DNA from: Bacteroidales bacterium
Lineage (GTDB): Bacteria; Bacteroidota; Bacteroidia; Bacteroidales; UBA932
NCBI GenBank assembly: GCA_017437125.1
Contig: JAFSBV010000012.1
Span: 17,018-81,017 of the forward strand
Direction of reading: 5' to 3'
DNA: 64,000 nucleotides
The notes beneath the pieces are model-generated. The model was not told the origin of the DNA and did no database searches. It worked only from the letters and a program-made list of their open reading frames with translations. Shown here one piece after another: positions 20,901 to 45,654 of this stretch (its first letter is position 1; every line of letters starts with the position of its first letter). The position numbers and the translations under genes are program-made.

Positions 20901-20945
20901 AAATCAGACCGACCCGATATTTTGGGCCGGTCTGATTTCTTTTAT
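20901..20945 (+). terminator. rho-independent terminator after argS
   Basis: AAATCAGACCG (20901-20911) pairs with CGGTCTGATTT (20929-20939), with further CCC/GGG pairing in the loop. CTTTTAT follows. It sits 18 bp after the argS stop, directly before the first 113-bp element. Confidence 0.88.
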
Positions 20946-20959
20946 ATGCATCTTTCCAG

Positions 20960-21072
20960 ACACCTTGGCCGTTTGGAGGCATAAAAAAGACCAAGGTGTG
21001 TGTGAAAACGTATTAAATATAGCCTTTTAAATACACCTTAGACGCTTTTTAAGTGTTTTCTGTCCAAGGTGT
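20960..21072. repeat. 113-bp two-unit inverted-repeat element, copy A
   Basis: Arms: ACACCTTGG 20960-20968, 22 bp, CCAAGGTGT 20991-20999, 33 bp, ACACCTTAG 21033-21041, 22 bp, CCAAGGTGT 21064-21072. It lies at the convergent junction between argS (+) and the DUF2812 gene (-). The intervening 22- and 33-bp stretches differ from those in copies B (31119-31231) and C (45542-45654), yet all spacings are identical. It encodes no ORF of note. Confidence 0.9.
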
Positions 21073-29632: not shown

Positions 29633-29686
29633 TCATTGTTTGTTTCGTGAAAAGTAGTTATATTCACAGACCTAATGATATCAAAC

Positions 29687-31144
29687 ATGAAAAAGCTCCT
29701 TCTGAACCTCTTTTTTATTGCTGTCGTCACACCTATGGCTGCCCAGACATTGATATTGCCGGGAGATTATGCCGATCCTACCATCCTTAAGGACGGTGAT
29801 GATTATTACATGACTCATTCTCCGTTTTATTATCAGCCTGGCTTTCTGATATGGCATTCCCGTAATCTGTTCAACTGGGAACCGATATGCAGGGCAGGAG
29901 AGGAATGGAGTGGCTCTGCATGGGCCCCGGATCTTCAGAAAGTGGGAGACACATATTACATATATTTCCCGGCCGACGATACGAATTGGGTAATGACGGC
30001 CAAGGATATCAGAGGCCCATGGACAAAGCCTGCTGATACAGGAATAAGCGGAATCGATCCGGGCCTTGCGGTGACACCGGATGGGAAACGATATCTTTTT
30101 ACCAGTGCCGGATATGTTACCCCATTGACAGATGACGGCATGAAACGAAATGGCGAGACAAAGAAGATTTATGACGGCTGGGTATATCCTCATGAGTGGG
30201 AAACCGAATGCATGTGTCTGGAATCTCCTAAGATCACATATCGTGACGGCTACTATTACATGACTTCTGCAGAAGGAGGCACGGCAGGTCCTGCAACAAG
30301 CCATATGGCCGTCTGTGCAAGGGCGAAGGATATATACGGGCCTTGGGAAAATTCTCCATATAATCCTATAGTACATACCTATTCCGATGTAGAGCAATGG
30401 TGGTCTAAGGGCCATGGCTCGTTGGTAGAAGGTCCTGACGGGCAGTGGTGGATAGTATATCATGCATATGAGAATGGCGCTTATTTTTTAGGAAGGCAGA
30501 CTGTCATGGAACCTGTGGAATGGACGGAAGGCGGCTGGTATCGTCCGGTCAAAGACCTGGAGATAAAGACCATACATGAGCGGAACGCATCTTTGTCTGA
30601 CAGTTTTGAAAGCGATAATGTCAGCTGGCAGTGGACCGGCTGGAAAGAGGATGTCACAAAATCGGTCTTCATGAGGAAAGGCCGGCTGGTTATGCCGGCA
30701 CGTGGAACAGTTCCTCATGACGGACGTCTGATGCTGATTACGGCGACAGACAGTGAATACTCTGTTGAAACTGAGGTTACAATCAAAGACAAAGATCTCA
30801 AAGCAGGACTTGTCCTGTTTTATAATGAGCATGCTTATGCCGGACTTCTCTGTGACAGCAAGACCCTTACAGTTTATAAGAATCCGGAAATGACGGAAGA
30901 AATCACAAATGATATAGGCAGAAATATCTTCATCCGTCTGGATTTCAGAAAAGGTCTGCTAGACATCAGTGTTAGCGCTGATGGGAGCGGATGGAATCTT
31001 CTGTGCAGGGATATAGATGTCTCGGAATTCCACCACAACAGATATGGAGGATTCCTTGCCTTGCGTCCTGCTTTATGCTCAGTCGGAGACGGAGAAGCGG
31101 AATTCCATCATTTCACATACACCTCGGCCGCTTTTTGTCGATAA
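29687..31144 (+). CDS. exported glycoside hydrolase family 43 protein
   Basis: The 485-aa protein has signal peptide MKKLLLNLFFIAVVTPMAAQ, and ATG 29687 is preferred to 29675 because it starts the signal. The five-bladed propeller residues are visible: base Asp in YADPTILKDGDDYYMTHS, pKa-modulating Asp in GIDPGLAVT, and acid Glu in ECMCLESPKI. Further GH43 motifs are WAPDLQKVGDTYYIYF and GHGSLVEGPDGQWWIVYH. From about residue 300 a second beta-sandwich domain follows (SLSDSFESDNVSWQW; GLVLFYNEHAYAGL). GH43 enzymes act on arabinose- or xylose-containing glycans, and specificity is not readable here. The last ~8 codons lie inside the second 113-bp element. Confidence 0.9.
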   Translation: MKKLLLNLFFIAVVTPMAAQTLILPGDYADPTILKDGDDYYMTHSPFYYQPGFLIWHSRNLFNWEPICRAGEEWSGSAWAPDLQKVGDTYYIYFPADDTNWVMTAKDIRGPWTKPADTGISGIDPGLAVTPDGKRYLFTSAGYVTPLTDDGMKRNGETKKIYDGWVYPHEWETECMCLESPKITYRDGYYYMTSAEGGTAGPATSHMAVCARAKDIYGPWENSPYNPIVHTYSDVEQWWSKGHGSLVEGPDGQWWIVYHAYENGAYFLGRQTVMEPVEWTEGGWYRPVKDLEIKTIHERNASLSDSFESDNVSWQWTGWKEDVTKSVFMRKGRLVMPARGTVPHDGRLMLITATDSEYSVETEVTIKDKDLKAGLVLFYNEHAYAGLLCDSKTLTVYKNPEMTEEITNDIGRNIFIRLDFRKGLLDISVSADGSGWNLLCRDIDVSEFHHNRYGGFLALRPALCSVGDGEAEFHHFTYTSAAFCR

Positions 31145-31231
31145 TATATCCAAGGTGTTACTCAAATCATTGTTTTGATGATATTTCTACTACACCTTGG
31201 ACGTTTTTAGTTGTCCAAGCGGCTAAGGTGT
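31119..31231. repeat. 113-bp two-unit inverted-repeat element, copy B
   Basis: Arms: ACACCTCGG 31119-31127, 22 bp, CCAAGGTGT 31150-31158, 33 bp, ACACCTTGG 31192-31200, 22 bp, CTAAGGTGT 31223-31231. Spacings are identical to copies A and C. It overlaps the last 26 bp of the GH43 coding sequence and ends 7 bp from the convergent DUF2723 gene, so it fills the whole junction. Confidence 0.9.
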
Positions 31232-45284: not shown

Positions 45285-45346
45285 CATGAACTCCTACACT
45301 CTCCCTTTTCTATAACGTCCATCACTAATTCGCTTGAAAACCTGCC

Positions 45347-45393
45347 GGACGGCCACGAAAAAGGCGAATAACCCTTATAAACAGAGGCCGTCC
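45347..45393 (+). terminator. possible terminator of the membrane-protein operon
   Basis: GGACGGCC (45347-45354) pairs with GGCCGTCC (45386-45393) across a 31-nt loop. ATCATAAAATCAGTTGTTTTT follows at a distance. The loop is large, so the call is weak. From 45285 to the 113-bp element at 45542 I see no gene. Confidence 0.4.
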
Positions 45394-45541
45394 ATCATAA
45401 AATCAGTTGTTTTTCTGCCGGAAACTTGACCCCGCACACAATGAGTGACCTATTTCTGATGGGTCGCAAATTGCCATACTGACTCACATGACGATACTCC
45501 TATGTAATCCTTATGAGTTTTTATCTTTGAGCAGTGAATAA

Positions 45542-45654
45542 ACAGCTTGGTAAAAAAGTGCCACAGAATTGACCGGGCTGTACAGAAAACCAATCAGATT
45601 GCCTTGATCTTGAGACAGCTTGGTCAAGATTAGACTATTAATTGACCGAGGTGT
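45542..45654. repeat. 113-bp two-unit inverted-repeat element, copy C (most diverged)
   Basis: Arms: ACAGCTTGG 45542-45550, 22 bp, CCGGGCTGT 45573-45581, 33 bp, ACAGCTTGG 45615-45623, 22 bp, CCGAGGTGT 45646-45654. Spacings equal those of copies A and B. In the first unit the arm change C to G at the fourth base is matched by G to C in the partner arm, and two T-G pairs keep the stem. It lies between the small-membrane-protein operon (+) and ExbB-like copy 2 (-). Confidence 0.85.

Follow-up and report, generated by a model that had tools for sequence, protein, structure and literature searches.

A 64,000-nucleotide stretch of DNA from a Bacteroidales bacterium (hereafter the window, meaning the whole stretch) carries three copies of a 113-bp element in which four 9-bp arms keep an invariant spacing (9-22-9-33-9-22-9) around fillers of differing sequence, and the question is what kind of element holds its geometry in this way. 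We consider it likely that a divergent Y1/HUH transposase family spreads it in trans as a REPIN-like, non-autonomous mobile repeat, and that the two dyads of the element (the 40-bp, 9-22-9 halves) are read as duplex DNA and synapsed. All three copies were confirmed at the positions and with the spacing given in the initial annotation:

20960..21072, no strand assigned: copy A of the 113-bp element; arms 20960-20968, 20991-20999, 21033-21041 and 21064-21072; consensus-free scan score 58 of 66, dyad distance 73.
31119..31231, no strand assigned: copy B of the 113-bp element; arms 31119-31127, 31150-31158, 31192-31200 and 31223-31231; consensus-free scan score 53, dyad distance 73.
45542..45654, no strand assigned: copy C of the 113-bp element; arms 45542-45550, 45573-45581, 45615-45623 and 45646-45654; consensus-free scan score 53, dyad distance 73.

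When the window is scanned without an assumed arm sequence, these copies alone exceed the shuffle maximum. The 40-bp unit has 13 matches at ≤3 mismatches, against 1.31 expected and a maximum of 5 in 100 shuffles. An open reading frame (ORF) to the left of copy B (29675-31144) terminates within that copy.

The layout is not a chance agreement of three sequences. In the window's own genome (G000; 2.8 Mb in 99 contigs, 91% complete) the 40-bp unit gave 16 matches per strand at ≤1 mismatch and the reversed-pattern control gave 0. Besides partial matches there are ten full copies, spread over seven contigs (C8, C29, C43, C47, C53, C70 and C74), so the earlier view that the element is restricted to an accessory 21-46 kb part of the window was wrong. 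Two further genomes of the genus, G024 and G056, hold 9 and 17 full copies. Among the resulting 36 (≤3 arm mismatches, partial and contig-end matches omitted) the layout is 22/33/22 in 35 and 22/32/22 in one, as found with a fixed-length model that under-represents copies bearing insertions or deletions, and 4 of the 36 flank a transposase gene. Under strict filters and at E≤0.01, the window's own arm family, R1, was detected in 6 of 61 congeneric genomes, strongly in G000, G024 and G056 and more weakly in G169, G039 and G021; five near-threshold matches outside the genus (E 0.002-0.009) were taken as chance.

Elements of the same geometry flank the genes of a transposase of ~304 aa, a divergent Y1/HUH family that is widespread in this genus of gut Bacteroidales. 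We scanned 420 bp on each side of 80 such genes for two dyads whose four arms resemble one another, at a dyad distance of 45-110; this dyad scan was preferred because a fixed 9-bp-arm scan scattered one layout over several values with a constant sum of 55. The best of 160 shuffles was exceeded in 126 of 160 flanks and in 0 of 160 segments farther from the genes. Within those 126 flanks the dyad distance is 71-74 in 107, 81-84 in 15 and another value in 4. Loci at least 57% identical to locus L112 have a counted distance of 73 or 72, and distant lineages have 71-73 or 81-84. The arms, by contrast with this distance, change with the protein: their agreement is 0.84 within a locus, 0.81 for proteins <20% apart and 0.27 for proteins 50-65% apart, and protein distance correlates with arm distance (r 0.57 over 72 loci, reached by 0 of 2000 permutations). 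Base-centred dyads (distance 74, five flanks), which occur at two of the loci ≥57% identical to L112, were omitted from these locus comparisons and from the A/T analyses below. The 73-bp class alone comprises 15 arm types. Beyond the ends of 70 flank elements at distance 73, no base is strongly conserved (maximum 0.51, ten columns per side). Arms are lineage-specific and dyad distance is near-constant, which supports the initial proposal that selection acts on geometry. Some loci hold longer arrangements: arrays of more than two 40-bp units with a period of 72-73 bp adjoin the transposase gene at L100 2406-2737 and L095 1283-1544, and at L055 1-330 (G056:C85) two 113-bp elements alternate in tandem with a 48-bp repeat (GTCATTGCGAGG...GTGGCAATC).

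Residues H50, H52 and Y107 are invariant in 47 of 47 of these proteins, aligned with two G000 proteins that match Pfam Y1_Tnp. There are 57 residues from H50 to Y107, which is predicted from its motif (consensus YVLRNALHH) to be the catalytic residue, and by computation the fold is of Y1 type and resembles that of a REP-associated tyrosine transposase (RAYT; REP, repetitive extragenic palindromic). The W motif (mostly W[QE]) that lies between HuH and Y in canonical RAYTs is absent, with a consensus LGE at what is, on our own reading of the correspondence, the expected place. Only one tryptophan, W206, is invariant across the 47; it falls in the C-terminal part, a region that could be a candidate duplex binder. 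In G000 the family has four members at 44-66% identity to P0001 and one more listed at 26%. Two other Y1 genes of G000 that are Pfam-positive, L016 (C63) and L017 (C43), adjoin elements scoring 38, 44, 42 and 49 of 66, with a single above-threshold element at distance 58 and sub-threshold dyads (44 and 42) at 73 on one side each; the four-arm geometry may thus extend beyond this transposase family.

Does each arm family travel with its own transposase? In G056 and G024, dispersed R1 copies occur together with a transposase flanked by R1 elements. A second family, R2 (arms ACCGTCCGA), has 21 match rows at ~15 places in G106, the holder of the corresponding transposase, and 6 match rows in G000, where the transposase on contig C7 carries such arms. 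A third, R3 (arms GAGCTGAG), matched only G039 and G056 in the same 12 genomes, where besides the gene-flanking pairs it has three more places, one of them in G039 and the other two in G056; these two genomes are the source of four of the six R3 model sequences. The flanking matches of R2 and R3 are not independent, because the models were built from transposase-flanking elements, partly of the searched genomes. Judged from sequence, the link between arm family and transposase is clear where elements flank the genes, but it emerges only in part when genomes are compared. One R2 match falls in the window:

45316..45422, + strand: probable degraded element of the second family (R2, ACCGTCCGA arms); model R2 26.9 bits, E 2.4e-7 in the window.

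It sits ~120 bp from copy C and is under threshold in the consensus-free scan; the same arm family flanks the C7 transposase.

Like fillers at different sites are comparative evidence that the element has moved. Copy C has 91% filler identity to G000:C70:310-422, which lies elsewhere in reverse orientation, and past the nearest ten bases their flanks match at 9/30 and 7/30. Likewise, the copies at C29:95969, C43:70511 and C47:16125 have fillers 68-82% alike, with 25-45% over the 40 bp outside and 2-5 of the nearest ten bases matching. Recurrence of the same fillers in different places, together with the transposase link, favours the mobile-element site that had been listed among several explanations.

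The fillers, described earlier as almost unrelated, are indeed without shared sequence, but they have helically phased A/T tracts in common. The A/T period is 10.4 bp in flank elements of distance 73 (n=70), 10.3 bp at distance 72 (n=26) and at distance 82 (n=12), 10.1 bp in six elements of distance 71, 10.5 bp in 35 R1 copies, 10.4 bp in the ten G000 copies and 10.4 bp with one representative for each of the 15 arm types. Under a symmetric null (arms fixed, all fillers permuted) the observed power was reached by 0 of 5000 permutations in each of these seven sets, and with the spacer permuted alone by 0-11 of 5000; random windows gave no comparable A/T period. The spacer holds three A/T tracts in the 73-bp class and four in the 82-bp class, one turn more and one tract more. 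The near-constant dyad distance and the helical A/T period support the suggestion of a protein array on one DNA face, and the analysis supports treating this array, the selection on geometry and the mobile-element site as one thing, a transposase-linked repeat.

We propose that the ~304-aa REP-associated tyrosine transposase would recognise the element and spread it in trans. The four arms would represent one lineage-specific recognition sequence arranged as two dyads, which would be read in duplex DNA either by the transposase itself or by a complex that it nucleates. Phased A/T tracts would bend or expose the DNA, and the dyads, with roughly seven turns between them (roughly eight in certain distant lineages), would face one side, so that the ends could be brought together in synapsis, after which the HUH domain would cut and join.

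Several observations, here and in the comparison with hairpins that follows, weigh against this account. Above-threshold elements are missing from 34 of the 160 transposase flanks, and 82 bp corresponds to 7.8 turns at 10.5 bp, eight turns requiring ~10.3. Permuting the unit fillers alone gives a weaker result: the observed A/T power is attained in 143 of 5000 with the six 71-bp elements and in 0-11 of 5000 with the other sets (7-11 in the 73- and 82-bp classes). The last 114 residues of the transposase (model pLDDT, a per-residue confidence score, 76.9), compared with known structures for a helix-turn-helix like the C-terminal one of subclass 2.1, have no match in PDB at E≤0.001. R2 also occurs without an identified matching transposase in G176 (15 rows), G032 (5), G026 (4) and G163 (2). 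In G000, whose assembly is 91% complete, no transposase adjoining R1 elements was found; the assembly may lack the gene, or the R1 copies, those of the window included, may be relics. Immediately outside copy C and its C70 counterpart, 6/10 and 7/10 bases match, and the moving unit may therefore be slightly longer than 113 bp, or there may be a target preference. By eye, no target-site duplication was seen in the flanks of the 36 extracted copies, and no base-exact empty site was found among the relatives' junctions compared; at copy A none is readable because the nearest relatives' matches end at the end of the upstream gene.

The most serious competitor, which we nevertheless regard as unlikely, is an ordinary REPIN whose substrate is read as folded single-stranded DNA, either as two 40-nt hairpins or as one long one, with the A/T period a by-product of stem or composition. 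It would agree with the known Y1 transposases, RAYTs and IS200/IS605 enzymes, which bind single-stranded hairpins in the portion of the published account drawn on here (PMC6006769). Nine of the ten G000 copies were folded as RNA and all beat their shuffles (z -2.9 to -7.4), and the long hairpin's arm pairing and covariation are matched by 7 and 5 of 500 shuffles. The flank set, which mixes lineages, shows more long-hairpin filler pairing inside a copy than from copy to copy (0.435 vs 0.330, 0 of 5000), which may be a hairpin signal. Against the hairpins, 86-87% of arm pairs are kept in both hairpin registers, little over shuffles, and arm covariation is weak; the 35 R1 copies pair their fillers less well within than between copies, both in the unit hairpin (0.291 vs 0.363) and in the long one (0.366 vs 0.382), and some of their arm positions are often mispaired (19/35 at columns 10/31, 21/35 at 83/104). 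A single-stranded spacer explains neither the near-whole turns nor the extra A/T tract of the 82-bp class. Within the R1 family, filler pairing and weak covariation therefore do not support selection for hairpins of RNA or DNA, and the double-hairpin RNA of the initial annotation finds little support. The phased A/T tracts and the missing preference for filler pairing in the dispersed family argue for duplex reading on one helical face; on balance we infer that the element is probably read in this way, unexpected as this is for transposases known for single-stranded hairpins.

There are two further explanations. The single copies could be remnants like solo long terminal repeats: an element-gene-element unit would move as a whole, and its flanking direct repeats would then recombine to leave one element behind. 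Among 39 loci with equal distance on both sides, the flanking elements are indeed direct repeats in 31, inverted in 2 and unclear in 6. At the junction between what we take from their sequences to be an M23-like peptidase and a GMP-synthase-like gene (guaA), G056 and G024 have element-gene-element and G000 carries copy D alone, at 4 and 7 bp from its two neighbours; gene loss or separate insertion would both fit. Solo copies, however, outnumber gene-flanking ones by 15 to 2 in G056 and by 7 to 2 in G024, and their best filler identities to gene-flanking copies (medians 0.40-0.46; copy D 0.42-0.46) do not stand out from the median of 0.42 over all pairs, making this origin quite improbable. The same junction in the other genomes yielded no base-exact empty site: G169, G163 and G007 have a terminator-like hairpin alone (by eye) and have diverged too far for the insertion point to be placed to the base, G026 has another palindromic sequence, G039 has an unrelated 581-aa ORF, and one side alone was located in G032, G021, G176 and G178. 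We give very little credence to a role at convergent gene ends that is unrelated to transposition, whether as a bidirectional terminator or as the binding site of a chromosomal protein of the host. Copy D does occupy the place of the relatives' terminator-like hairpin (by eye), and 7 of the 10 copies in G000 lie between convergent genes, an arrangement shown by 6 of 34 gaps in the window. The convergent placement claimed for the window thus holds in its own genome and weakens across the three genomes, where 13 of 28 classifiable copies are convergent and 15 are not (the other 8 of the 36 being unclassified; ORF calls are crude throughout). The arms, moreover, track the transposase lineage, and R1 was found in just those 6 of the 61 genomes of the genus, besides the five near-threshold matches outside it.

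Elsewhere in the window, a terminator-like hairpin of ordinary type lies at 20905-20945, just ahead of copy A, and resembles that of relatives at the M23/guaA junction (both by eye). Rfam at gathering thresholds gave two matches in the window, neither on a 113-bp element, and the search places a Bacteroidales signal-recognition RNA there. Plasmid records contained no sequence resembling copy A.

To our knowledge, it is not settled how an entire REPIN is recognised by its RAYT. REPINs rank with the most common repeats of bacteria (PMC8049555), and those of Pseudomonas, as far as the cited text describes them (PMC3116915), are likewise short, non-autonomous two-half repeats with a variable spacer and a preferred spacing, scattered between genes and linked to RAYTs. 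Their halves are inverted REPs with commonest inter-REP distances of 71 bp (GI) and 110 bp (GII), whereas here each half forms a dyad of its own from a pair of similar arms, making four arms per element, and the A/T tracts are helically phased. REP-flanked RAYT genes, according to the cited portion of PMC2817692, also have the repeat on both sides, coevolution of protein and repeat, and repeat abundance that tracks the gene, but their flanking REPs are inverted. Among published groups TnpA_REP subclass 2.6 comes closest, both in its host and in its 'atypical secondary structures', and the element may be the same or a sister phenomenon: in the cited part of PMC6006769 these are Bacteroidetes genes flanked by such structures, with copies elsewhere, although those proteins have a median of 179 aa, a median HuH-Y distance of 82 and the motif YIH[QN]NP, against ~304 aa, 57 and YVLRNALHH here. 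For TIRYT (subclass 2.1), the same portion gives an inverted-repeat consensus GGGG[AT][CG]A[CG] and no REP-like sequences near the genes, and does not mention a four-arm geometry. Canonical marks are lacking, namely the guide tetranucleotide GT[AG]G at the hairpin foot (the arms differ between lineages), the W motif at its expected place and inverted flanking repeats. In a wider sense, which asks for dispersed doublets of palindromic halves together with their cognate RAYT, as G056 and G024 have them, the element and its transposase belong among RAYT/REPIN pairs. The 9-22-9-33-9-22-9 layout is not described among the matches listed from the open full-text literature (subscription papers, figures and supplements lay outside the scope), so the first impression of an undescribed repeat class stands for the layout and falls for the group, REPINs and RAYTs being described.

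From these sequence comparisons, we see about an even chance that HUH 'single-strand' transposases assemble on duplex ends with four lineage-specific sites on one face of curved DNA, at about seven or eight turns, a geometry held while the letters are rewritten. If so, each transposase lineage would carry a private key cut from a common blank. With 15 arm types in one geometry, that of the 73-bp class, the letters read by the enzyme would be separable from the shape. Duplex and single-strand recognition would become testable against each other, with many matched pairs of enzyme and site on offer.
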